Shown here piece after piece: positions 14,601 to 26,634 of a DNA stretch of 54,712 bases; the first letter of the stretch is position 1; each line of letters opens with the position of its first letter. The stretch comes from Eubacteriales bacterium (GTDB lineage Bacteria; Bacillota; Clostridia; Lachnospirales; Lachnospiraceae). The stretch covers positions 1 to 54,712 of the forward strand of contig JAUNFZ010000012.1 of NCBI GenBank assembly GCA_030524785.1, given 5' to 3'. Under the pieces are notes generated by a model. The model did not search any database. It was not told the origin of the DNA and saw only the letters and a program-made list of their open reading frames with translations. A program made the translations under genes and the position numbers.

Positions 14601-14838
14601 GCGGCTGTCGCCTCTTTCATGCGCACGCCACGCCTACGCTCGTGAAACCTTTGGTTTCCCTTGCCGCATAACTTGCCAACGCCACGCCTACGCTCGCGAA
14701 ACCTTTGGTTTCCCTCGCCGCATAACTTGTCAACGCCACGCTTACGCTCGCGAAACCCTTGGTTTCCCTCGCTTTGCGGCTGTCGCTTCTTTCATGCGCA
14801 CGCCACGCCTACGCTCGTGAAACCTTTGGTTTCCCTCG
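14601..14838. repeat. Four-copy GC-rich intergenic repeat array
   Basis: Four copies of a core of about 37 bases (CCACGCCTACGCTCG, then GAAACCTTTGGTTTC, then CCT) at about 14628-14662, 14681-14715, 14734-14769 and 14803-14837. Each core contains a small palindrome GAAACC-TTT-GGTTTC. Two spacer types alternate: A (GCGGCTGTCGC..TTTCATGCGC) before copies 1 and 4, and B (GCCGCATAACTTG..CAACG) before copies 2 and 3. The array lies between the divergent TIGR04086 and CNNM genes. No coding signal, and the spacers are not unique, so it is not a CRISPR. Confidence 0.85.
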
Positions 14839-15049: not shown

Positions 15050-16318
15050 TTGGATTCAGGCGAGGCCATACAGCTATGTACGATTATTCTGCTGATTGCA
15101 CTCTCTGCATTTTTTTCATCGGCGGAGACTGCTCTGACCACGGTAAACAAAATTAAGATTAAATCGCTGGCAGACGAAGGCGATAAGCGTGCTGCCACGC
15201 TTCTGCGGGTTACGGAGAATCCCGGAAAGATGCTGAGCGCCATTCTGATCGGCAACAATATTGTAAATATTGGAGCCGCCTCCATGATGACGTCGCTGAT
15301 GATGAGTACTTTCGGAAGCTGGGCGGTAAGCGTCGGCAGCGGCATTTTAACCCTGGCGGTCCTGATTTTCGGTGAGATATCCCCAAAGACTCTTGCCTCC
15401 CACAATGCGGAAAAAATGGCCCTGGCAGACGCTGGAATTATTTTGTTTCTTACAAGAATCCTGACCCCGGTTATTTTTCTTACGAACTGGCTGGCGAATC
15501 TGTTTCTGAAACTTTTGGGCGTTGATCCAAAAGCCCGTAACGACGTGATGACGGAAAATGAGCTGCGCACCTATGTGGACGTAAGCCATGAGGACGGCGT
15601 TATCGAGCAGGAAGAAAAACAGATGATCTATAATGTATTTGACTTCGGCGACACGCAGGCAAAGGATATTATGGTTCCACGCGTGGATATGGTTTCCATT
15701 GACGTCAATTCTTCCTACGAAGATGTTCTTAGTGTCTTTCGGGAAGAACAGTTTACCCGTCTTCCGGTCTACGAAGAAAGCGCTGACAATGTGATCGGCG
15801 TACTGAACCTGAAAGACTTTTTCTTCAACGGACAACAGCATTTTGATCTGCGTTCGCTGATGCGGGAGCCCTATTTTACATATGAATATAAAAATACTTC
15901 CGAACTCATGGAAGAAATGCGAAAGGACTCCATCAATTTTACCATTGTTCTGGACGAATACGGCGCGACGGCCGGCCTGATTACTCTGGAAGATCTTTTA
16001 GAGGAGATTGTTGGCGAAATCCGGGACGAATACGACAAAGATGAAGAAAATCTGATTCAGAAAATTTCAGACAGAGAGTATATTATTGAAGCTTCCATGA
16101 AACTGGATGATGTGAATGACGCCCTTAATCTGTCGCTGCACTCTGAAGATTTTGATTCTCTGGGCGGCCTTATGATCGACCAGCTGGAACATCTTCCAGC
16201 CGCAGGCGAATCGGTCACCTGCTCCGACGGTATTCGCCTGGTAGCGGAGGTCGTAGTGAAAAACCGTGTTGATAAAATACATATGTATCTGCCCGAAAAA
16301 AAAGCTGCTGAGGTTTAA
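15050..16318 (+). CDS. CNNM/CorC-type transporter with CBS domains
   Basis: About 422 residues. An N-terminal CNNM (DUF21) membrane domain with four helices (LCTIILLIALSAFFSSAETAL onward; the SAETAL and GNNIVNIGAASM words are typical) is followed by a CBS pair (MVPRVDMVSIDV; FTIVLDEYGATAGLITLEDL) and a CorC_HlyC C-terminal domain (SLGGLMIDQLEHLP). Likely transports or controls Mg2+ or another divalent cation; often annotated as hemolysin C. The start is taken as TTG at 15050, nine bases after GGAAGGAGA, because the promoter lies downstream of other candidate starts. Confidence 0.88.
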   Translation: MDSGEAIQLCTIILLIALSAFFSSAETALTTVNKIKIKSLADEGDKRAATLLRVTENPGKMLSAILIGNNIVNIGAASMMTSLMMSTFGSWAVSVGSGILTLAVLIFGEISPKTLASHNAEKMALADAGIILFLTRILTPVIFLTNWLANLFLKLLGVDPKARNDVMTENELRTYVDVSHEDGVIEQEEKQMIYNVFDFGDTQAKDIMVPRVDMVSIDVNSSYEDVLSVFREEQFTRLPVYEESADNVIGVLNLKDFFFNGQQHFDLRSLMREPYFTYEYKNTSELMEEMRKDSINFTIVLDEYGATAGLITLEDLLEEIVGEIRDEYDKDEENLIQKISDREYIIEASMKLDDVNDALNLSLHSEDFDSLGGLMIDQLEHLPAAGESVTCSDGIRLVAEVVVKNRVDKIHMYLPEKKAAEV

Positions 16319-16335
16319 CCTCACGCAGTTTTTTT
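16296..16335. terminator. Bidirectional terminator between the CNNM gene and the Rnf operon
   Basis: Stem CTGC-TGAGGT/ACCTCA-GCAG with a TTA loop, flanked by a run of eight A on one side and seven T on the other, so it works on both strands. It overlaps the CNNM stop codon and lies about 30 bases past the NusG-II stop. Confidence 0.9.
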
Positions 16336-16364: not shown

Positions 16365-16739
16365 CTACCAGGCAGCATCGTCTGCGCCGCTGTCATCATC
16401 TGTATCAATTGTAATAATCAATTCATGGGGCAGGCAGGCGATCACCTCGCCCCTCCGGCTGATTCTCCCCTGATGCACACAGATTTGATCCGGACAGTCG
16501 GCCTCTGTAACGCATACTGTCCCCTCTGCGACTTCTATCCGGTTGCGGCCCGACGTTTCTCCTCCCACGGTAAGCACCGTATTCTCCGTAAGATCCAGCC
16601 GGGCGATTACCTCGCCGCAGGACTGGACAACCGCATAGTTTCCGCCCTTTTTCATAAAAATCCGCTGCGCCAGAAGCCCTGCCAGCGCAGCAGCCAAAAT
16701 CACCGCTGTAAAAATGATGGTATTTCTCTTTTTCTTCAT
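16365..16739 (-). CDS. NusG domain II-containing membrane-anchored protein
   Basis: 124 residues: a signal-anchor helix (TIIFTAVILAAALAGLLA, about 7-24), then a compact beta domain with the C-x5-C..CLPHELII pattern (EADCPDQICVHQGRI..GEVIACLPHELII) typical of stand-alone NusG-II domain proteins. These occur beside apbE, FMN-binding proteins and Gx transporters in Firmicutes and are thought to act outside the membrane in the flavin system; the role is unproven. The start at 16739 lies 19 bases after the apbE stop; the ribosome site is weak. Last gene of the Rnf transcript. Confidence 0.8.
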   Translation of the reverse strand: MKKKRNTIIFTAVILAAALAGLLAQRIFMKKGGNYAVVQSCGEVIARLDLTENTVLTVGGETSGRNRIEVAEGTVCVTEADCPDQICVHQGRISRRGEVIACLPHELIITIDTDDDSGADDAAW

Positions 16740-16758
16740 ACTGCCGTTTCCATTTCTG

Positions 16759-17745
16759 TTACCGCATAGTTTCATCGGTATATGCCAGCGTTCCATCCTT
16801 CAGAACAAACACCGCCTCGGCTCCTTCGATTTTTCCGATCAGTTCTTTTGCCTCCTCAAAGCCGAGAGCCAGACAGGAGGTACTCAGCGCGTCCCCTGTC
16901 AGCGACGTGTCACTGATTACAGATACGCCCTCTATGTCGCTCTGCACCGGATACCCCGTATCAGGATCCAGGATATGATGATATAATACCCCATTCTGCT
17001 CAAAATATCTCTCATAGATTCCCGAGGAGACCACCGTCTGGTCATCCACTTCTACCACGGCGGAACTGTCGCCGTAATCTCCAAAGGGCTTTTGGATACC
17101 AATATTCCAATTGCTTCCGTCCGGCTTCGTCCCGATGGCAAGTACATTTCCGCCCAGATTAATAAGGCCGGAGGTTACCCCCTGAGACGTCAGATATGCT
17201 TTCAGCCGGTCCGCCGCGTATCCTTTCACCAGCGCGCCCAAATCGATCATCGTATCGGGACTGTCAAAGCGCAGGACATTTCCGTCCACATGAACCTTCG
17301 CAGCGTCCACCTTCTGAAGCGCTTCTTCAATCGCCCCGGCCTCCGGCACCCGGGCGTCCTCGCTCTTAAAATCCCATAAATCTGACAAAGGCGCAATCGT
17401 TATATCAAACTTTCCGCCGGATTTTTCGTAGTAATCCAATCCCACCTTCACCAATTCTGCAATTCCGGCTGAAACTTCCACCGTATCCTGCTGCCGGTGA
17501 TTCACCGCGTACAGCTCGCTTTCACTATCGGTGCGGCTGAAGGTCTTTTCCATAGCGTCGCACATCTCCATGCAACGCTGCATAAGCTCCTCTCCGTTTT
17601 CATCCGCATAGAATCTGATCTGGATTACCGTATCAAAATAAAGGGCCTGCTTTTCAAACTGTTCCGGCTCCTTCTGCCTGCCGCACCCCACAAGGAGGCA
17701 CAGCAGAGCAGTCAGAGCCGTATACAATAATGCTTTCTTATTCAT
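16759..17745 (-). CDS. apbE: FAD:protein FMN transferase (ApbE), lipoprotein
   Basis: 328 residues. Lipoprotein signal with lipobox LLVGC (lipidated C21), then the ApbE fold: YFDTVIQIRFY, DLGALVKGYAADRL, GGNVLAIG and the Mg/FAD site region SLTGDALSTSCLALGFEEA. It moves FMN from FAD onto a Thr in S-G-A-T motifs of exported domains. Five such motifs are encoded just upstream (RnfD, RnfG and three in the flavoprotein), which are the obvious substrates. Starts one base after the flavoprotein stop, so the two are translationally coupled. Confidence 0.95.
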   Translation of the reverse strand: MNKKALLYTALTALLCLLVGCGRQKEPEQFEKQALYFDTVIQIRFYADENGEELMQRCMEMCDAMEKTFSRTDSESELYAVNHRQQDTVEVSAGIAELVKVGLDYYEKSGGKFDITIAPLSDLWDFKSEDARVPEAGAIEEALQKVDAAKVHVDGNVLRFDSPDTMIDLGALVKGYAADRLKAYLTSQGVTSGLINLGGNVLAIGTKPDGSNWNIGIQKPFGDYGDSSAVVEVDDQTVVSSGIYERYFEQNGVLYHHILDPDTGYPVQSDIEGVSVISDTSLTGDALSTSCLALGFEEAKELIGKIEGAEAVFVLKDGTLAYTDETMR

Positions 17746-17746
17746 T

Positions 17747-20707
17747 TCAGCCTGCTGCCTGCATCAGACATTCAATAACAGCTTTCCTTACGGCTTCGCT
17801 GGTCAGCGTCGCCCCGGACACTCCATCCACATCCACGCTCTGAGTTTCCAGAATCGCCTTCGCCATTTCCGGCGCTGCTTTCTGTCCCAGATCCAGTGTT
17901 TCCGTCCTGCAGTCCGTAACCGATACATCCTCAAAGTTTCCGTCCTCACCAATTGTCACGGAAACCTTCACATCACCGGCAAAGCCCTTTGCCGCAGCTT
18001 CATAGGTACCGGCCGCATACGCGCTTTCAGCGGCCGCCTCATTTTCCTGTGCGGTTTCGTTTTCCGCAGCTTCATTTTCTGCAGTTTTATCTTCTGCAGT
18101 TTCGGCTTCCGGCGCTTCATTTTCTGCGGTTTCGTTTTCTGTCGTTTCATCTTCCGGCGCTGCGCCGTCTTCCTCAGCCTTATCGTCCGAGGAAGCTGCA
18201 GCCGTTACATTTGCAGCTTTCGCTGCATTTTCACCGGCAATTTTTCCAAAGGTCATAATGTCCGGATAAGCATTTCCGCCCAGGCGGTTATTGCCATGGA
18301 TTGCGCCTGTAACTTCGCCTGCGGCATACAGGCCCGGAATCGGATTTCCATCTGCATCCAGTACCTGAGTTTCAGTGTTTATCTGTACGCCGCCCATCGT
18401 GTGATGCACTGTAGGCGTTCTGAGGCTTGCGTAGAAGGGTGCAGTCTCAATTACAGAATCGGGGCTGGTGGCTTTTCCAAATTCATCCTTGCCCTCCAGC
18501 ATACCTTTGTTGTACTTTTCCACCGTCGCTGTAAGCACTTCGGGATCCACGTCAATCTTTTCTGCCAGTTCCTCCAGCGTATCCGCGACTACGCTGTGGC
18601 CGTCTGCAATCAGGGATTCAATCTGCTCTTTGCGGCTTTCATCTCCCTCAATCTCGCTGGAATCCACAATCAGCCACATCTGATCATCCGTCTGCTCCAG
18701 CTCGGCCATAGACATTTCATAGCGGGTTCCGTCCTCTTTTACAAACCGTTCCCCTTCTTTATTTACAAACATATATTCCGTCGCGCTCAGCCAGTTACCC
18801 ACAAACATCGCCACACAGCCGCAGTCATCAATCGGATCGCCAAGAGGATGCACCTGAATCTGATCCAGGTCTACCGTTGTTCCGCCGGCTTCCTCCGCCA
18901 GTTTGATTCCGTCGCCCATACTGCTCTTTGCGCAGCTTGTCATTGTGGTTGTAATCGTTCCGCCGCTGTACTCGTACACAAGCTCCGAATTTGCGGCAAA
19001 CCCGCCTGTGCTCAGCACAACTGACGGCGCATTTACCGTAATTTTGGAACCGTCGCTACATTCCGCAATTGCTCCGGCCGCCGCTCCGTTTTCGTCTATA
19101 ATCAGCTTTGTCACTTTGGCGTCTGTAATGATCTGCGCACCGTTTTTCTCTGCGTACTCCCGCAGACGGTCAATATAAATCTTGCCGCCGCCATCGCCTT
19201 CTTTGCCGGTTGCAGCCACCAGGTCAACCTGATGTCCCCTTGCCCATTTGCCTCCGATAGCCATGAAAATATAATCGTCCTTAAAGGGAACGCCAATCGT
19301 ATTTTCCAGCCAGTCCAAAGTATCTACCGCTCCCTCTGCAAAGGTGCGGATGAGAGGAATATTTCCAATGCAGCCGCCTCCCTCGTAGGTCTGCAGCGCA
19401 TGCCAGTTCGCACTGTCAAACAGCGTTGTATCGCCCGATTCCAGGTAAGCTTCATAATCCGCCTTTGTATCCGCAATCAGATCCGCAAGATCCTGATTAT
19501 CCCCGGGATCCTGTGCAAGAGCCGCTTCTACCTCTGCCTTGTTGTCCTCCGTCATCGTCAGCAGTTTCTGGCGTTCGGGATCCGCCACGTTATATGTGCC
19601 CTCACCCAGCGTCGTATTGCCGCCGATAAAGCTCATTTTTTCCAGGACAACCACGTTTGCTCCCTGTTCGCTGGCGCTCGCTGCCGCAGCCATGCCTGCG
19701 CCGCCGGCTCCGACAATTACCACATCCGCGTCGATCTCCTGATCCTCTGCGGGCTCCTTCGCCGTATCCGCCTCTTTTCCTTTCAGCGAAGCCGCATCGA
19801 TTCCTGCAGCTTTCAAAGCGTCCGTCACGGCTTCTTTCAGGCCCTCGCTTGTCAGCGTCGCGCCGCTGACGGTGTCCACATCCACCGTCTGGCGTTCTAT
19901 CATCTGGGGAATCATTCCATCAAAAGCCAGATTTCCAATGCCGTCCGTCTCTGAATGTTCTGTTACTTCCACGTTCTCAATCCCTGTATCGGAAAGAGTC
20001 ACCTTAACCTTGATTTCTCCGTTTCTTCCGGCTCCTGTTCCCTCAAACTCGCCTGCCGTAAACACTGCCTCGCCGCCGGATGCCTCTGCCGCCTCCGAAG
20101 CTTCTTCTTCCGAAACTGCTTCCTCGGATGCAGCGGCTGTTTCTTCATCTGAAGTTTCCTTTTCTTCTGCCGCCGCGTTCGTCTCAGATTCTTCCGCCGC
20201 TGTGTCTGCCGTATCTGCCGCCGCGTCTGTCTCCGGTTCCTCTGCCGCGTTCGTCTCAGACTCTGCTTTTTCTTCCCCGGCTTCTTCTGCCTTGAACGCT
20301 GACACATCGAATCCGGCCTCCACAATGGCCGCCTCCACCGCGCTCTTTACGGCATCGCTTGTCATGGTTGCGCCGGATACGCCGTCCACATCCAGACTCT
20401 GCTGTTCTGCAATCGCCGCCGCCACTTCAGGCGCCGCCGCCTGGCCAATCTCAGGCGTCTCTGCACTGCAGTCAACAATTGTTACGCTCTCTATGGACGT
20501 GCCGTCCTCATTAAGTGCCGTAGCCACAACAACGTCTCCTCCAAAGCCCTGAGCGCTCGTCTCAACCGCCGCCTGACTGCCGCCGGCTGCGCTGTCTGAC
20601 GCTTTCTGAAGAAACATATTATAAATACCGTCTGAGCCAAGAATCAGCGCCAAAGTCAGCACCACCATAGCTACAAGGGATATTAAACCTTTCTTCCTGC
20701 TATTCAT
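17747..20707 (-). CDS. Membrane-anchored flavoprotein reductase with three FMN-binding domains
   Basis: 986 residues. Domain order: signal-anchor helix (7-24), FMN-binding domain 1 (about 50-135, SGAT 111-114), an Ala/Glu-rich linker (140-215), FMN-binding domain 2 (about 220-305, SGAT 281-284), a FAD-binding fumarate/urocanate-reductase-type domain (about 325-830, GAGGAG at 333-338), a second acidic linker, and FMN-binding domain 3 (about 895-983, SGAT 964-967). Residues matching the fumarate-reductase active site appear as H620 (QVHP), R662 (near ERFVKEDGTR), H769 (VHHTMGG) and R808 (HGNNRLGG), so catalysis is plausible. The electron acceptor cannot be named from sequence. A GAAGGAG site precedes the ATG. 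It sits between the Rnf genes and apbE. Confidence 0.88.
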   Translation of the reverse strand: MNSRKKGLISLVAMVVLTLALILGSDGIYNMFLQKASDSAAGGSQAAVETSAQGFGGDVVVATALNEDGTSIESVTIVDCSAETPEIGQAAAPEVAAAIAEQQSLDVDGVSGATMTSDAVKSAVEAAIVEAGFDVSAFKAEEAGEEKAESETNAAEEPETDAAADTADTAAEESETNAAAEEKETSDEETAAASEEAVSEEEASEAAEASGGEAVFTAGEFEGTGAGRNGEIKVKVTLSDTGIENVEVTEHSETDGIGNLAFDGMIPQMIERQTVDVDTVSGATLTSEGLKEAVTDALKAAGIDAASLKGKEADTAKEPAEDQEIDADVVIVGAGGAGMAAAASASEQGANVVVLEKMSFIGGNTTLGEGTYNVADPERQKLLTMTEDNKAEVEAALAQDPGDNQDLADLIADTKADYEAYLESGDTTLFDSANWHALQTYEGGGCIGNIPLIRTFAEGAVDTLDWLENTIGVPFKDDYIFMAIGGKWARGHQVDLVAATGKEGDGGGKIYIDRLREYAEKNGAQIITDAKVTKLIIDENGAAAGAIAECSDGSKITVNAPSVVLSTGGFAANSELVYEYSGGTITTTMTSCAKSSMGDGIKLAEEAGGTTVDLDQIQVHPLGDPIDDCGCVAMFVGNWLSATEYMFVNKEGERFVKEDGTRYEMSMAELEQTDDQMWLIVDSSEIEGDESRKEQIESLIADGHSVVADTLEELAEKIDVDPEVLTATVEKYNKGMLEGKDEFGKATSPDSVIETAPFYASLRTPTVHHTMGGVQINTETQVLDADGNPIPGLYAAGEVTGAIHGNNRLGGNAYPDIMTFGKIAGENAAKAANVTAAASSDDKAEEDGAAPEDETTENETAENEAPEAETAEDKTAENEAAENETAQENEAAAESAYAAGTYEAAAKGFAGDVKVSVTIGEDGNFEDVSVTDCRTETLDLGQKAAPEMAKAILETQSVDVDGVSGATLTSEAVRKAVIECLMQAAG

Positions 20708-20725
20708 TTTCTTCTCCTTCTTCTT

Positions 20726-20809
20726 TTATTTTTCGCTTTCCTCAATCATAGGACTTACCAGAATACTCAACTGATACAGTGCTGTCATGGAAAGCTGCCA
20801 TAATTTCAT
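20726..20809 (-). CDS. 27-residue micro-ORF between rnfB and the flavoprotein
   Basis: An ATG preceded by AGGAGAACAGC, whose GGAG overlaps the rnfB stop, opens a 27-residue frame beginning MKLWQLSMTALYQLSILV and ending PMIEESEK. The gap to rnfB is 9 bp and to the flavoprotein start 18 bp, so the frame fills the space between them. The product would be a short amphipathic or hydrophobic helix with an acidic tail. No known family recognised. It could be a small subunit, a leader peptide for coupling, or chance. Confidence 0.55.
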   Translation of the reverse strand: MKLWQLSMTALYQLSILVSPMIEESEK

Positions 20810-20818
20810 GCTGTTCTC

Positions 20819-21616
20819 CTACCTTTTGCGGATGATCTTGGCGGGACATTTTTCCGCACATTTGCCGCAGGCCTGACATTTTTCCTGATCAATCACCGCC
20901 ACATTTCCATTCATGGAAATTGCTCCGAACTCGCACTGCTTTACACAGGCCGTACATCCAATACATCCGGCGGAACAGGCTTCCCTTACTGCTTTGCCTT
21001 TATCCTGGGAATTACACTGCACCACATACTTTGCATCCGCCGGTATCAGCACAATCAGTCCGTTGGGGCAGGTGGCCGCACACTTACCGCAGCCCACACA
21101 TTTTTCCCTGTCTACCACGGCTACGCCGTTCACCACGTGGATCGCATCAAACTGGCACGCCGTCACGCAGGAACCAAAGCCTTTGCATCCCTTCACACAG
21201 TGTTTTGCGCCTCTGCCCGGCACTACTGCTGCCGCCCGGCAGTCCTTGATTCCAACATAATTGCACTTGTCAAGCGCTGTATCACAGTCTCCGGAGCAGC
21301 GGACAAACGCCACTTTTTTCACCGCGGCCTCTGCCTCCACGCCAAGAATCGCGCTGATTTTTGCTCCTACAGGAGCGCCTCCCACCGGGCAGGCGTTTGC
21401 AGGCGCTTCGCCCTTTGCAATTGCCGCCGCCAGGCCATCACAGCCCGGATATCCGCAGCCGCCGCAGTTATTTCCCGGCAGCTCTGCACGGATTGCAGCT
21501 TCTTTTTCGTCTGTTTCCACCTTAAATTTTTCCCCGGCTGTCACCAGAAGGAAGCCAACAACCGCACCTACCACGCCCACAATCAGGGCCGTCAACAGAA
21601 TTGCTGTTATACTCAT
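20819..21616 (-). CDS. rnfB: Rnf complex subunit B (ferredoxin-type)
   Basis: 265 residues. N-terminal membrane helix (LLTALIVGVVGAVVGFLLV), then a [4Fe-4S] domain with C51, C54, C59 and C76 (NNCGGCGYPGCDGLAAA), a Cys-rich middle (CSGDCDTALDKC, GIKDC), and C-terminal ferredoxin clusters (CVGCGKCAATCP, CIGCTACVKQC, CQACGKCAEKCP). It takes electrons from reduced ferredoxin in the Na+- or H+-pumping Rnf complex. Twelve bases separate it from rnfA. Confidence 0.96.
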   Translation of the reverse strand: MSITAILLTALIVGVVGAVVGFLLVTAGEKFKVETDEKEAAIRAELPGNNCGGCGYPGCDGLAAAIAKGEAPANACPVGGAPVGAKISAILGVEAEAAVKKVAFVRCSGDCDTALDKCNYVGIKDCRAAAVVPGRGAKHCVKGCKGFGSCVTACQFDAIHVVNGVAVVDREKCVGCGKCAATCPNGLIVLIPADAKYVVQCNSQDKGKAVREACSAGCIGCTACVKQCEFGAISMNGNVAVIDQEKCQACGKCAEKCPAKIIRKR

Positions 21617-21628
21617 GTTTCTTCCTCC

Positions 21629-22204
21629 TTATATCAACCCGGCAAACCCGTTGAAGGCAATGGCCATCAGCGCTGCCGTAAACAGCACAATCGGCATCCC
21701 CTTCAGCGGCCCGATAATATTGTTGTTTTCCATACGCTCACGGATACCTGCAAGAATCACGATGGAAATTGTAAATCCCACAGAAGTTCCGATACCGTTC
21801 ACTACACTGTGTACAAAATCATATTCTTTCTGTACATTTGTCAGCGCTACGCCCAGCACGGCACAGTTCGTTGTAATCAGCGGAAGATACACGCCCAGCG
21901 CCTGATACAGGGCAGGGCTTGATTTCTTCAAAAACATTTCCACAAACTGAACCAGTCCTGCAATTACCAGAATAAATACGATGGTCTGCAAAAACTGCAG
22001 GTCCAGCGGCGTCAGTACCAGATCGTAAATCAGGCTTGCCACTGCAGAGGCAATCGTGATAACGAAAATAACTGCCACGCCCATGCTGGCGGCGGTCTTT
22101 ACCTGCTTGGAAACACCAAGGAACGGGCACAGACCGTAGAACTGGCTGAGTACAACATTATTTACCAAAGCCGCACCGACTAATAATAATACCATTTCTG
22201 ACAT
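21629..22204 (-). CDS. rnfA: Rnf complex subunit A
   Basis: 191 residues, six membrane helices. NNVVLSQFYGLCPFLGVSK near the N-terminus and LITTNCAVLGVAL in the middle carry the two cysteines that ligate the intramembrane iron-sulfur centre with RnfE. Length and order match the family. Confidence 0.96.
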   Translation of the reverse strand: MSEMVLLLVGAALVNNVVLSQFYGLCPFLGVSKQVKTAASMGVAVIFVITIASAVASLIYDLVLTPLDLQFLQTIVFILVIAGLVQFVEMFLKKSSPALYQALGVYLPLITTNCAVLGVALTNVQKEYDFVHSVVNGIGTSVGFTISIVILAGIRERMENNNIIGPLKGMPIVLFTAALMAIAFNGFAGLI

Positions 22205-22216
22205 GTCTATCCCTCC

Positions 22217-22915
22217 CTATGCCTGTGTCTTCTGCTCGTCTTTGCGGTCAGAACATCCGGCCTTGCCGCAGGTACAGCAATCGCCCTCGCAGCCTTCCAC
22301 TTTCTTGTTGCCGTTGTTCTCGATCTTCAATCCGTTCAGCACCGCAATCAAAGCTCCGAGTACGATAAACGCGCCCGGCGCGGACACAAAGATTGCCACC
22401 GGCTGAAAGCCCGCCGGCATAATGTTCATACCAAAGAACGTGCCTGCCCCGATCAGCTCACGGAAAATACCGATCAGCGTCAGCGCAATCGTAAAGCCAA
22501 GTCCCATTCCAAGTCCGTCGCAGGCAGCCAAAAGCGGCGTCGCCTTGGAGGCATATGCCTCAGCGCGGCCCAGAATGATACAGTTTACCACGATCAGCGG
22601 TATGTACAGTCCCAGCGAGGAATAAAGCGCCGGAATGTACGCTTTGAGAAGCAGCTCCACCACGGTAACCAGTGAAGCGATTACCACGATATATCCCGGA
22701 ATCCTTACCTGATCGGGAATGATGTTCCGCATCAGCGAGATAATCAGATTCGACAGAATCAATACCGCCATGGTGGAAAGCCCCATTCCGATGCCATTGA
22801 TCGCAGAAGTCGTCACCGCCAGCGTCGGACACATGCCGAGCACCAGAATAAACGTCGGATTCTCTTTGATAATGCCGTTTAAAATTCTCTCTTTATATGC
22901 ATTGTTATTATTCAT
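22217..22915 (-). CDS. rnfE: Rnf complex subunit E with a Cys-rich tail
   Basis: 232 residues. Six membrane helices with the conserved NPTFILVLGMCPTLAVTTSA and LIVVNCIILGRAEA, the partner cysteines to RnfA. Odd point: the C-terminal tail after the last helix carries five cysteines in about 12 residues (EGCEGDCCTCGKAGCSD), which is more than a minimal RnfE needs and could bind metal. Spacing to neighbours is 12 bp on both sides. Confidence 0.95.
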   Translation of the reverse strand: MNNNNAYKERILNGIIKENPTFILVLGMCPTLAVTTSAINGIGMGLSTMAVLILSNLIISLMRNIIPDQVRIPGYIVVIASLVTVVELLLKAYIPALYSSLGLYIPLIVVNCIILGRAEAYASKATPLLAACDGLGMGLGFTIALTLIGIFRELIGAGTFFGMNIMPAGFQPVAIFVSAPGAFIVLGALIAVLNGLKIENNGNKKVEGCEGDCCTCGKAGCSDRKDEQKTQA

Positions 22916-22927
22916 CGCTCACACCCC

Positions 22928-24490
22928 CTACTCTGCTGCGCTGTTCACAAGATACAGCGCTGCATTGACGGCATTGGTAACTGCGGTGGAGGTAACGGTC
23001 GCTCCGCTCATCGCCTGAATCTGCGTATCGTCCTTCGCCGCATCCTTAGTCAGCTCAAATTCTTCCACGGCATCGCCGATATACTGGTCTTTGAATGTAT
23101 CCTCTGTCGCACGCATGCCAAGGCCGGCCGTCTCGCTGATCGCCAAAAATTCCATACCGGTAATGGCAAGCTCAGAATCAAAGCCGATGCTGAGGGTGAT
23201 ATCCCCGCCGAATCCTTCTTTGCTGGTAACATTTACCACATAGCCATTCTGAACTCCTTCGGCATCCAGAGCCGCGTAAGCGCTCTCATATACCACGTTT
23301 CCGAATTTTCCGTCGGCCACCGTGCCGTCCTCCGCTGTCAGAGATGCAATCGTCTCCTCCAGTTTTTCATCCGTATCAAAGCTCTCGGCGTCCGGACATA
23401 CCGCCGCATAGGCCTCCGCCTGAGCCGCCAGCTCTGCTTTCTCAATAGGACCCTTTGTCAGCTGATAAACTCCGCCAAGGGCAAGGCCTGCCGCCAGGGT
23501 AATCGTACACAGCTTCACCGCAGGCATATAGCTTTTTATAGAAACAGCTTTCTTTCCCTCCAGCGCTCCCGGCGCATAGCCAAAGGCCGTGGGCATCGTT
23601 ACCTTCTCGATCAGCGGAACAAGAAGGTTGCTTATGATGATTGCATAAGATACTCCCTCCGCCGATGAGCCGAACGTGCGCAGGATTCCCGTCAGGACGC
23701 CCAGCAGAATACCGTAGAGGATCTTGCCTTTTTTCGTAATCGGGCTTGTCACATAATCGGTGGCCATAAAGAACGCGCCCAGCATAATGCCGCCGCTGCA
23801 AAGCTGCGCCGCCACAAATGCAAGGTCGCCGCTCTGAGCGCCGAAGATCAGTTCAAACACTGCAAAGCTTGCCAGATACAGCACCGGAATTTCCCAGGTA
23901 ATAATCTTTTTCACCAGCATATAAATGCCGCCGATCAATACCGCAAGTTCGGAAACCTCCCCGATGGTGCCTCCCGTAAATCCAAGAAAAGCCGAGGACA
24001 GATTCACAGCCTGACCGCTGGCCAGCTGCGCCAGCGGCGTTGCTCCCGAAACGCCGTCCACAACATAATCACTCATAATCCCGGTGAATGAGATCAGCAA
24101 AAAGCAACGCGCACCCAGGGCCGGATTCATAAAGTTCTGGCCCAGACCGCCGAAAAACTGTTTTACAAATACAACAGCAAATATGCTTCCCAGGGCAGGA
24201 ATCCAAAGGGGCACGGTAGGCGGAAGATTCAGTCCCAGAAGAAGACCCGTAACCAGTGCGCTTCCGTCCGAAACCGTCACTTTCTGGTTGGTCAGCGTCT
24301 GAAACATATACTCCGACAGCAGTGCAAATCCAACGGATACCAGTAATACCAGCAGGGAATATATACCAAAACGATATACGCCGAAAGCCGTGGCAGGAAG
24401 CAGGGCCAAAGCAACATCATACATGATGCTTCTGCTGGAATCGGCGCCTCTGACATGAGGCGATGATGAAACATTTAAAAAGCCGTTCAC
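22928..24490 (-). CDS. Fused Rnf subunits D and G
   Basis: One 520-residue frame covers both subunits. Residues 1 to about 310 are RnfD: ten-helix membrane core, opening SSSPHVRGADSSRSIMYDV, with flavinylation motif SGAT at 148-151 (T151). Residues about 322-520 are RnfG: one membrane helix (CTITLAAGLALGGVYQL) and an extracytoplasmic FMN-binding domain with SGAT at 495-498 (T498). Separate rnfD and rnfG genes are the rule, with about 310 and 190 residues, and no separate rnfG is present here. The frame is continuous with no internal ribosome site evident, so it reads as a true fusion. Links RnfC/B electron flow to the membrane exterior. Confidence 0.92.
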   Translation of the reverse strand: MNGFLNVSSSPHVRGADSSRSIMYDVALALLPATAFGVYRFGIYSLLVLLVSVGFALLSEYMFQTLTNQKVTVSDGSALVTGLLLGLNLPPTVPLWIPALGSIFAVVFVKQFFGGLGQNFMNPALGARCFLLISFTGIMSDYVVDGVSGATPLAQLASGQAVNLSSAFLGFTGGTIGEVSELAVLIGGIYMLVKKIITWEIPVLYLASFAVFELIFGAQSGDLAFVAAQLCSGGIMLGAFFMATDYVTSPITKKGKILYGILLGVLTGILRTFGSSAEGVSYAIIISNLLVPLIEKVTMPTAFGYAPGALEGKKAVSIKSYMPAVKLCTITLAAGLALGGVYQLTKGPIEKAELAAQAEAYAAVCPDAESFDTDEKLEETIASLTAEDGTVADGKFGNVVYESAYAALDAEGVQNGYVVNVTSKEGFGGDITLSIGFDSELAITGMEFLAISETAGLGMRATEDTFKDQYIGDAVEEFELTKDAAKDDTQIQAMSGATVTSTAVTNAVNAALYLVNSAAE

Positions 24491-24501
24491 AATAATCCCT
24501 C

Positions 24502-25827
24502 CTATCCTTTCTTTCTTCTCTCAGCCATAACAGCCTGACGCATCTGGCGGAACGCCTGGGTCAGGGGCCGTCTTGCCGGACATGCAAAGGTACAGCTTCC
24601 GCACTCGCAGCACTCCATGCCATTTAACCGCACGAACTCCGCCGTATCATACTTCATCGCAGCGTCCATCATCTTCTGGGGTACAATGTTGGAGGGACAT
24701 ACCTGCACACAGCGGCCGCAGCGAATACATACGGTTTCCTCATACCGCTCCACATCATCCTGCATCATACAGGTCAGCGCTGAGGAGGTCTTTACAATCG
24801 GCACATCCAGCGAAGGAATCGACATTCCCATCATGGGGCCGCCGGCGATTACCTTTTTTACGCCTTCTTTCAGGCCGCCGGCCGCCTCCGCCAGCTCTGC
24901 AAAGCTTGTTCCGATTTTCACACTGAAATTGCCCGGCTGTGCAATGCCGTCGCCGGTCACTGTGACAATGCGCCTCATAAGAGGCGTGCTCTCGCAGACC
25001 GCCATGTGAATCGCAATCACCGTATCCACGTTGTCCACAATACATCCGGCGTCTGCCGGAAGCTTCGTGGAGTTGATCTTTCTGCCGGTCACTGCATAGA
25101 TCAGATTGCGCTCTGCGCCCTGGGGATATTTTGTTTTCAGGGGAACAACCTCAATTCTGCTCTCGTTCTTTACCAGTTCCTGCAGATTTTTAATGCCAAC
25201 CGGCTTGTTCGCCTCAACGGCGATCACACCCTTCGCATTATCAAAAAGCTGAAGCATCACCTTCAGTCCGCCCACAATATGCTCTGGATCCTCCAGCATT
25301 TCACGGTAATCGCTGGTGAGATACGGTTCGCACTCGGCGCCGTTTACAATCACATAGTCAATCGCATCAGGATCTTTCGGCATCAGCTTTACATGGGTCG
25401 GAAAACCTGCACCTCCAAGGCCCACGATACCCGCCTCCTTCACGGCATCCAAGATTTCCTGCTTTGTCAGCTTTGTGTAGTCCCGGTATTTTCCTATACC
25501 CTCTACCGGGGTATATTCACCGTCATTTTCAATCACAATCGCATCAATCTTGGCGCCGGACACCGTAAGACGCGGTTCGATGGCCTTCACCGTGCCTGAT
25601 ACCGAGCTGACGATATCGGCTGAAACGAATCCGCCCGCCTGGGCGATTTTCTGTCCCATCAGCACCCGGTCTTTCTTCTGAACCACCGGTTTCGCAGGCG
25701 CGCCGATATGCTGTGAAAGCGGAAATACCAGTTCACCCTTGGGCAGGTACGTCTGAATCGGTTTGTCTTTCGAAAAGCGCTTTCCGTCGTCAGGATGAAC
25801 GCCGCCCTTAAACGTTGCTAGTTTCAT
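24502..25827 (-). CDS. rnfC: Rnf complex subunit C (NADH-binding)
   Basis: 441 residues. NADH/FMN-binding Nqo1-like core (GLGGAGFPTHVKL; IDYVIVNGAECEPYLTSD), a SLBB region and two C-terminal [4Fe-4S] clusters (CIRCGRCVQVCPSN and CCECGSCTFACPARR). Exchanges electrons with NAD+. The start at 25827 (MKLATFKGGVHP) follows AAGGAGAAGGAG; the in-frame extension upstream lacks a family match. First gene of the Rnf transcript, behind its own promoter. Confidence 0.96.
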   Translation of the reverse strand: MKLATFKGGVHPDDGKRFSKDKPIQTYLPKGELVFPLSQHIGAPAKPVVQKKDRVLMGQKIAQAGGFVSADIVSSVSGTVKAIEPRLTVSGAKIDAIVIENDGEYTPVEGIGKYRDYTKLTKQEILDAVKEAGIVGLGGAGFPTHVKLMPKDPDAIDYVIVNGAECEPYLTSDYREMLEDPEHIVGGLKVMLQLFDNAKGVIAVEANKPVGIKNLQELVKNESRIEVVPLKTKYPQGAERNLIYAVTGRKINSTKLPADAGCIVDNVDTVIAIHMAVCESTPLMRRIVTVTGDGIAQPGNFSVKIGTSFAELAEAAGGLKEGVKKVIAGGPMMGMSIPSLDVPIVKTSSALTCMMQDDVERYEETVCIRCGRCVQVCPSNIVPQKMMDAAMKYDTAEFVRLNGMECCECGSCTFACPARRPLTQAFRQMRQAVMAERRKKG

Positions 25828-25876
25828 ACTCTCCTTCTCCTTCATAATAGAACTCAAAATATAACATTCTGTATTC

Positions 25877-25905
25877 ATATTAAACTTTCTGCATAAATTT
25901 TTCAA
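25877..25905 (-). promoter_or_regulatory. Promoter of the Rnf operon
   Basis: TTGAAA, 17-base spacer, TAATAT on the minus strand, about 50 bases before rnfC and downstream of the Gx-transporter terminator. Confidence 0.75.
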
Positions 25906-25928
25906 TATAAAAGTTACTTGTTCCTTAC

Positions 25929-25968
25929 AAAAAACACAAAAATCCCCCGGGCAAACAGAGGATTTTTT
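25929..25968 (-). terminator. Terminator after the Gx-transporter gene
   Basis: Stem AAAAATCC/GGATTTTT (minus-strand reading) with a GC-rich loop and a following T-rich stretch, ten bases past the stop codon. Confidence 0.75.
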
Positions 25969-25977
25969 GTTATTTTT

Positions 25978-26499
25978 TTACCAAATCTGCCGCGGGAGCC
26001 TTTTTATAACGCAGGCCCCAAGGAAACCGATCAGCGCTCCCATCACAGTCCCCGATAAAAGAAGCACCGGAAGGTAAGCAAACACCGCGGCGCTTTCCAA
26101 AACAACCGCCGCCACAATCAGCTGTCCTATGTTGTGGGAGATGCCTCCCGCTATGCTCACTCCCGTCTTTCCCATCCAGTTCTTTTGCATACACAGCCAC
26201 ATGACAAGAAAGCTTAAGATCCCTCCGGCAAAACTGTACAAAAGCGCAAACATATTGCCGAAGGTCATGCCCACCAGAAGAATACGCACCATGGAAATAA
26301 CAAAGGCATCCGCCGGCGTCATCAGATACAGGGCGGCAAAAACCACAAGATTTGCCAGCCCTGGCTTAACACCAGGGATACCAATGGTTATGGGTATCAA
26401 CATTTCAATATAACTGAATATCATCGCCAGCGCAACCAGTACGCCGTACATAGCTGCCCGGGCAGCCAGCGTTTTTTTTGTCCACTGCTTTTTCTGCAT
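25978..26499 (-). CDS. Gx transporter family (HepS-like) membrane protein
   Basis: About 173 residues with five to six membrane helices; the GIPGVKPGLANLVVFAALYL stretch is the family signature. Older annotation calls it heptaprenyl diphosphate synthase component I; it is now seen as a small transporter component. It co-occurs with NusG-II, apbE and FMN-binding genes, as here. Start is uncertain: the chosen ATG has AGGGAGG about 15 bases upstream, while earlier starts (TTG at 26541, ATG at 26538) have no ribosome site. Confidence 0.75.
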   Translation of the reverse strand: MQKKQWTKKTLAARAAMYGVLVALAMIFSYIEMLIPITIGIPGVKPGLANLVVFAALYLMTPADAFVISMVRILLVGMTFGNMFALLYSFAGGILSFLVMWLCMQKNWMGKTGVSIAGGISHNIGQLIVAAVVLESAAVFAYLPVLLLSGTVMGALIGFLGACVIKRLPRQIW

Positions 26500-26634
26500 A
26501 AGATTTTCCGGCTTCCTCCCTGTCCGAAGCGTCAGCATCAACGCTATTATGTTAGCACAAATCCTGCGCCCGGTAAAGTGGAATCTCCCGGTAATCCTGC
26601 CTTAAACTTCAGCCGCCGCTCTGCCGCCGGTTCT

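Follow-up and report, generated by a model that had tools for sequence, protein, structure and literature searches.

A chimeric, membrane-anchored flavin reductase as a candidate electron exit of an Rnf operon in Lachnospiraceae

How exported flavin reductases are supplied with electrons in fermenting gut Clostridia without quinones is the question touched by the locus described here. It lies in contig JAUNFZ010000012.1 of a Eubacteriales bacterium of the family Lachnospiraceae (GenBank assembly GCA_030524785.1); the whole stretch analysed, 54,712 nucleotides, is called the window below, and it is contig C78 of a 2.75-Mb draft assembly (114 contigs, 92% complete, 3.7% contamination). In the window, genes for all Rnf subunits stand beside a gene for an anchored, chimeric reductase of 986 residues with three domains predicted to bind flavin mononucleotide (FMN) covalently, and beside apbE. 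Electron donor (Rnf), flavin wire, flavin-loading enzyme and reductase, the last with a domain for flavin adenine dinucleotide (FAD), would all be encoded in one operon.

The rnf genes and the 986-residue protein

An earlier note on this DNA, made from the sequence letters, had listed an Rnf gene set, a reductase with three FMN domains, apbE and a NusG-II gene. Profile matches (Pfam, NCBIfam) bear out each of these, and the whole set, from rnfC to nusG-II, lies on the minus strand:

24502 to 25827, minus strand: rnfC (TIGR01945, 514 bits, cut-off 246)
22928 to 24490, minus strand: fused rnfD-rnfG (TIGR01946, 301 bits, cut-off 207; TIGR01947, 108.3 bits, cut-off 102)
22217 to 22915, minus strand: rnfE (TIGR01948, 254 bits, cut-off 213)
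21629 to 22204, minus strand: rnfA (TIGR01943, 259 bits, cut-off 229)
20819 to 21616, minus strand: rnfB, with Fer4 and FeS domains (TIGR01944, 93 bits, cut-off 69)
17747 to 20707, minus strand: anchored chimeric reductase of 986 residues (Pfam and NCBIfam; PF04205, 154 bits; TIGR01813, 340 bits, cut-off 285)
16759 to 17745, minus strand: apbE, FAD:protein FMN transferase, with an N terminus of lipoprotein type by eye (PF02424, 287 bits)
16365 to 16796, minus strand: NusG domain II gene, for which a start at 16739 is equally likely (PF07009, 102 bits)

All six Rnf subunits (A, B, C, D, E and G) score above their NCBIfam cut-offs, G narrowly. The start of rnfC is likely at 25827 rather than 25905, as read from the sequence behind the AGGAGAAGGAG stretch. 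Gaps of 11-12 nt separate the rnf genes, 111 nt lie between rnfB and the reductase gene, and 1 nt between the reductase gene and apbE. The rnfD-rnfG fusion is shared by those congeners whose locus is complete and by G311, which belongs to another genus of the family. The window shares with clostridial Rnf (RnfABCDGE) the six subunits and the flavinylation motifs in RnfD and RnfG; it differs in the fusion and in having a terminal reductase and apbE in the same operon.

Five S-G-A-T flavinylation motifs had been predicted, two in RnfDG and three in the reductase, and all were located in the translations: RnfD T151 (148-151, within DGVSGAT), RnfG T498 (495-498, within QAMSGAT, which lacks the usual Asp) and T114, T284 and T967 of the reductase. 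The single ApbE to which the note had matched them holds for the whole assembly, where the apbE of the operon is the sole match. FMN_bind matches number five in the assembly, four of them in the operon and one on contig C99. This last one (L052 1033-1419) is a small lipoprotein-like FMN_bind protein with the sixth flavinylation motif of the genome, and its gene precedes an open reading frame (ORF) that resembles a multidrug-type transporter by eye.

The 986-residue protein begins with an anchor helix (residues 2-38; hydrophobic and, by eye, without a lipoprotein box), followed by a first FMN_bind domain (F1, 41-133) and an acidic linker. Its centre consists of a second FMN_bind domain (F2, 214-303) and a flavocytochrome-c type FAD/reductase domain (about 321-832), and its C-terminal part of another acidic linker and a third FMN_bind domain (F3, 895-986); the borders of F1, F2 and F3 come from a home-made FMN profile. 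Having three FMN_bind domains and an anchor helix in one predicted extracytosolic protein, it belongs among the putative multi-flavinylated proteins. An AlphaFold model built from 18 sequences (mean predicted local distance difference test score, pLDDT, 78.8; predicted template modelling score, pTM, 0.60) shows helix 2-38, all three FMN_bind folds and, with good confidence, the FAD domain; pLDDT falls below 50 in the linkers (141-198 and 851-873), and both linkers are tandem repeats at the DNA level (20165-20266 and 18050-18161). Among solved structures, the closest to the model is 6t86, a urocanate reductase with FAD (TM-score 0.91 by target length, 2.6 A).

Origin of the chimera within the genus

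The genus was sampled with eight genomes, the window's included, and rnfB is present in all of them. Two relatives have an anchored three-FMN_bind protein without an FAD domain after rnfB, of 415 residues in G121 and of 430 residues in G400, where the motif of the third domain is lost. In G399 the corresponding protein is an anchored string of at least six FMN_bind domains, again without an FAD domain and interrupted by a run of N. The flavin string is absent from G397, G401 and G402, where apbE directly follows rnfB, and G398 contains a scar-like remnant of 36 codons that resembles the start of the string and the linker (NSKRKG..SLV) and has no start codon. The relatives can serve as natural controls, since some have the wire without an enzyme inserted in it, one has a remnant and the rest have neither.

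In a tree of 44 FMN domains, meant to exclude any with more than five X, F1 pairs with domain 1 of the G400 string (support 100/96; 68% identity). F2 falls inside an 18-row clade of reductase FMN domains plus one lipoprotein, that of C99 (98/99), and F3 stands among the domains of multi-flavin strings, with a best identity of 57% and in no supported clade. Four relatives of the enzyme came from a scan of 84,980 named species genomes, which may miss records near the window: secreted single-FMN reductases of 650-671 residues, 70-72% identical over the FAD domain, three from rabbit-named Lachnospiraceae metagenome-assembled genomes and one from a Clostridiales metagenome-assembled genome. The window's FAD domain and these four stand-alone reductases form a clade with support 100/100 in the FAD tree (three reductases without a start pattern excluded). 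When aligned, an entire mature reductase of the stand-alone type, from just past the signal sequence to the last residues, is found between F1 and F3. No rnf genes occur beside the four stand-alone relatives in the flanks read, which were short for three of them. Genes for a LytTR response regulator and a GHKL kinase lie just upstream of stand-alone relatives (L153 1-2098; L154 7410-9571), perhaps for sensing of the acceptor.

Comparison thus supports, though it does not prove, that an Rnf-associated multi-flavin protein and a stand-alone reductase were combined in frame to give the 986-residue protein; a complete mature single-FMN reductase would have been placed in frame inside the anchored multi-flavin protein that the operon already had. 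The tree of the joined Rnf and ApbE sequences is ((G399, G121), (G400, (window, (G398, G397), (G401, G402)))), with 84-100% bootstrap. Given this topology, the multi-flavin string is most simply ancestral in the genus, the enzyme having been gained by the lineage of the window and the string lost in its sister clade. The chimera is recent-looking and, among the genomes searched, appears confined to the window's genome; the string search and the reductase flanks read, both described below, gave no second case. What recurs in other genera is Rnf-linked anchored flavin proteins in differing arrangements, not the chimera. Base composition was tried as an indicator of recent foreign origin and gave no clear signal (G+C 56.0% in F1, 52.6% in F2, 53.1% in the FAD domain and 55.8% in F3, versus 47.7-55.3% in the rnf genes).

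Reductases with both FMN and FAD domains are found only in the same four of the eight genus genomes that have a string or the chimera. Only YARHG-FMN proteins were found in G397 and G398, apart from an FAD protein without an FMN domain in G397. The genome with the most reductases, G399, is also the one of the eight with a match to TatC, of the twin-arginine translocation (Tat) system: between its rnfB and its string lie TatA-family and TatC genes, identified by profile, and a short TatA-like ORF seen by eye (L050 8322-9833). Tat motifs are present in eight of the ten reductase-type ORFs fetched from G399 (one by Pfam only).

Electron path and acceptor

RnfG holds its covalent FMN at the outer face, where this mobile flavin carries electrons between RnfA-RnfE and RnfD (PMC12174285); the same source describes a Methanosarcina Rnf to which a multiheme cytochrome has been added as an outlet. 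For Rnf with a multi-flavinylated RnfG, a second, outward path to outside acceptors is proposed in the eLife 2021 survey (PMC8238504). On these precedents the 986-residue protein may be read as the flavin counterpart of the cytochrome outlet, with the enzyme built in. Our preferred reading, which we consider fairly probable, is a self-contained electron exit on Rnf that would run from the RnfG flavin through the FMN domains of the anchored protein and its FAD to an unsaturated organic acid outside. Cytoplasmic RnfB would accept electrons from reduced ferredoxin; these would cross the membrane through the RnfA-RnfE cluster and arrive at the FMN bound covalently to RnfG. Part of the electrons would leave RnfG for the FMNs of the 986-residue protein instead of continuing through RnfD and RnfC to NAD+. 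F1 and F3 would move on long flexible acidic linkers, with F2 beside the enzyme; F1 might meet RnfG near the membrane, F2 feed the FAD and F3 act as a further carrier, although these contacts are guesswork. The FAD would then reduce a small alpha,beta-unsaturated organic acid outside the membrane, and the ApbE of the operon would load the five flavins. The operon thus resembles a short respiratory chain that lacks both quinones and cytochromes, in which the electron flow, its direction and the ion pumping along it are putative.

Several known systems resemble parts of this arrangement. In Methanosarcina acetivorans, Rnf with MmcA is likewise an Rnf operon with an added outward electron conduit (PMC12174285); the window has predicted covalent flavins instead of hemes, plus an enzyme domain for a defined organic acceptor. 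Rnf with a multi-flavinylated RnfG (PMC8238504) shares the proposed second outward path through several covalent flavins, but RnfG of the window has one FMN domain, and the extra flavins would sit on a separate anchored protein that contains the terminal reductase. The two-gene Nqr/Rnf-like systems (PMC8238504, PMC11334425) are similar in that electrons would be exported one way, through parts of Rnf or Nqr, to an FMN domain; they combine an RnfD/NqrB-NqrF fusion with a separate FMN protein, whereas the window has a full Rnf and an rnfDG gene with an RnfG part. Reductases such as UrdA and those of Listeria and gut bacteria also have FMN_bind beside a flavocytochrome-c type FAD domain. UrdA-type single-FMN enzymes receive electrons from chains encoded elsewhere, whereas the enzyme of the window is encoded within an Rnf operon, has a further FMN domain on either side and differs in its active-site residues. 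No paper describing a reductase encoded within an rnf operon, or one joined to a flavin string linked to Rnf, was found in the literature covered; this did not extend to the supplementary tables of the eLife survey, which could list such clusters, or to publications of 2019 and 2024 on the reductases of Listeria and gut bacteria.

Three genomes from other genera likewise appear to link Rnf genes to anchored flavin proteins or reductases, each in its own arrangement; this too is supported, not proven, by comparison. G311 encodes, in one direction, an anchored protein of 1376 residues, a NusG-II-like protein, rnfC, rnfDG, rnfE, rnfA, rnfB, a PF07456 gene and apbE. The domain order of the large protein is FMN, FMN-FAD, FMN-FAD (L267 282-4412); given 99.5% identity over 1770 bases between the two FMN-FAD units, the second of them may result from a recent duplication or from an assembly error. 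In G371 (L218 3559-12829), rnfD, G, E, A and B are followed in a row by a three-FMN string, an rnfC-like gene, another rnfD-like gene and an FMN protein with two domains and degenerate motifs. G037 (L268 1268-5372) has rnfC-like and rnfD-like genes directly before an anchored FMN-FAD protein of 615 residues, and the other Rnf genes are absent on that contig; this is perhaps a short NADH-to-outside fumarate reductase module. Its layout speaks for NADH as the donor in the window as well, with the NAD side of Rnf reversed, so that RnfC and RnfD would feed RnfG or F1 and then the reductase; the ferredoxin and pumping half would be bypassed, or the pump reversed. Rnf is reversible (PMC12052999), but the complete Rnf sets in the window and in G311 would be unneeded for an NADH-only path, and we regard this donor as unlikely.

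Several observations weigh against the ferredoxin-fed exit that we prefer. The chimera has been seen in just one assembly, itself incomplete (92% complete, 3.7% contamination), and the co-occurrence of string and reductase in the genus was rejected as statistical support because it goes back to a single change on the tree. Of the 397 family genomes, 338 contain RnfB. The downstream side was read for 80 rnfB loci outside the genus (60 nearest usable and 20 more distant), and seven with less than 2 kb downstream were excluded; none of the other 73 has a same-strand FMN_bind or reductase gene on that side, and one has a 147-residue FMN protein on the opposite strand. A reductase match is present in 38 of the 397 family genomes, and 16 genomes among the 73 rnfB loci have such a match and no flavin protein downstream of rnfB, so reductases of this kind do not generally need an Rnf-linked string. 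Rnf-type genes adjoin two of 49 family reductase loci, those of G311 and G037 (flanks of about 1.5 kb for 29 loci and wider for 20; single ferredoxin-like matches of unlike length at L272 and L280 are not counted), and none of the 28 loci of a wider class search.

The string search matched 13 of 397 family genomes and two of 391 class genomes, the window's own included. Among the string loci read outside the genus, only that of G371 lies beside rnf; the others are beside apbE and PF07456 genes. At L205, L207 and L212, in other genera, apbE accompanies a three- or four-domain FMN protein and a 150-residue FMN protein, with no rnf in the flanks read and PF07456 beside two of them. The rnfB survey had first led us to view the link between Rnf and flavin proteins as confined to the genus. 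This view was dropped because the string search and the reductase flanks showed G371, G311 and G037; an arrangement like that of G311 would escape a survey in which only downstream sides were read.

The 16 genomes with a reductase but no flavin protein after rnfB, and the location of most reductase loci away from rnf, fit a different explanation, that the reductase shares the operon merely for its ApbE. Another membrane donor or reduced soluble flavins would feed the enzyme, and Rnf would work between ferredoxin and NAD+ as usual; genes for apbE, nusG-II and PF07456 are often near rnfB in the family anyway. A donor would still be required, however, and the genome has no UbiA match. Furthermore, the multi-flavin string beside rnfB appears to predate the insertion of the reductase, and anchored reductases adjoin Rnf genes in two other genera too. 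We consider sharing for ApbE alone quite improbable.

The donor of Listeria-type extracellular electron transfer is quinone-dependent. A UbiA-type prenyltransferase was not matched in seven of the eight genus genomes, including the window's (assembly 92% complete), the one match in the genus being in G400; the same search was positive in 14 of 14 control genomes. With no UbiA match in the genome of the window, a quinone-linked donor such as that of the Listeria type is unlikely. The earlier note had proposed an Rnf-dependent respiration in which electrons leave at the RnfG flavin for an organic acceptor. Its core, respiration driven by Rnf, draws support from the chimera, the Rnf links in G311, G037 and G371 and the lack of a UbiA match, and it is the best-supported reading, though still an inferred one; exit at RnfG, the source of the electrons (ferredoxin or NADH) and the identity of the acceptor stand as proposals.

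The acceptor was approached by comparing the active site of the window's enzyme with those of flavocytochrome c3 (Fcc3) and urocanate reductase (UrdA). His620, Arg662, His768-His769 and Arg808 are retained. The fumarate-type Thr-Glu pair is replaced by Gly637-Asn638 in the window's enzyme and the four stand-alone relatives, and the urocanate-type Tyr and Asp positions are His620 and Gly637 in the window's enzyme. The four relatives agree with the window's enzyme in all of these features. We take the Thr-Glu pair of Fcc3 (T377, E378) to hold the second carboxylate of fumarate and R402 to be the proton donor; in UrdA, a Tyr at the Fcc3 H365 position and an Asp at the Fcc3 Thr position presumably have a role in substrate binding (the numbers H365, R402 and E378 appear in PDB titles). 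Fumarate and urocanate are unlikely acceptors because the site has neither the Thr-Glu pair nor the Tyr and Asp, and the most likely substrate is an unsaturated acid that carries a single carboxylate. From the acceptors put forward earlier (fumarate, urocanate, acrylate-type and cinnamate-type acids), the first two would therefore be struck, and other unsaturated monocarboxylates remain. The Thr-Glu pair is kept in the reductases of G311, G037 and G121 and in one further family reductase; the G311 and G037 enzymes look like fumarate reductases.

A D-C-G-C insertion (residues 628-631; with its surroundings, window 18327-18830) is invariant in the window's enzyme and its four relatives and absent from the other aligned reductases. 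The loop adjoins the active site and could be a disulfide or metal site; confidence of the model is low at 630-638.

The superfamily includes dehydrogenases, for instance 3-ketosteroid dehydrogenases, and an enzyme of that kind would pass electrons from an outside substrate into Rnf. The nearest solved structures are, however, urocanate and fumarate reductases, and the Arg equivalent to R402, the proton donor of Fcc3, is conserved together with the His/Arg carboxylate clamp, which makes a dehydrogenase highly improbable.

A broader version of the electron exit is held more tentatively, as a possibility. The operon would be a complete respiratory chain with no quinone or cytochrome, made of ferredoxin, ion-pumping Rnf, a covalent flavin chain and a grafted terminal reductase, and energy would be conserved with electrons going to an outside organic acceptor and not to NAD+. 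Rnf operons of the family would act as a docking site to which anchored reductases were added more than once (window, G311, G037), the acceptor being set by the grafted enzyme. If this is true, Rnf is more than a ferredoxin:NAD+ pump and could drive respiration with dietary or host-derived organic acids. New here are the chimera, the natural series that the congeners form with it, and the finding that anchored flavin proteins linked to Rnf recur in other genera.

Operon borders and neighbouring features

Further features around the operon are as follows; the hairpins and promoter-like sites are pattern matches only (15 hairpins versus 10.6 expected, and 17 promoter-like sites versus 8.8):

25978 to 26541, minus strand: PF07456 gene (Gx transporter / heptaprenyl diphosphate synthase component I family; 133 bits), probably its own transcription unit
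25967 to 25938, minus strand: hairpin with a run of T between the PF07456 gene and rnfC (pattern scan)
25877 to 25905, minus strand: promoter-like site TTGAAA-17-TAATAT before rnfC (consensus scan, 9 of 12 matches; alone no evidence of function)
20726 to 20809, minus strand: micro-ORF of 27 codons, read from the sequence, with no role assigned
16309 to 16323, minus strand: terminator-like hairpin with a run of T on the 3' side of nusG-II (pattern scan)

The likely operon, with its tight spacing, runs from about 25877 to 16309; the PF07456 gene, for which 'Gx transporter' is the name given in the earlier note, is probably in a separate transcription unit, since the hairpin and the promoter-like site precede rnfC. 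The micro-ORF, which had been counted as a member of the operon, was ruled out as a conserved small protein and is given no role because none of the seven congeners has a counterpart after rnfB. Elsewhere in the window, a 54-bp tandem repeat (2.7 copies, 94% matches) lies between two genes at 14625-14772.

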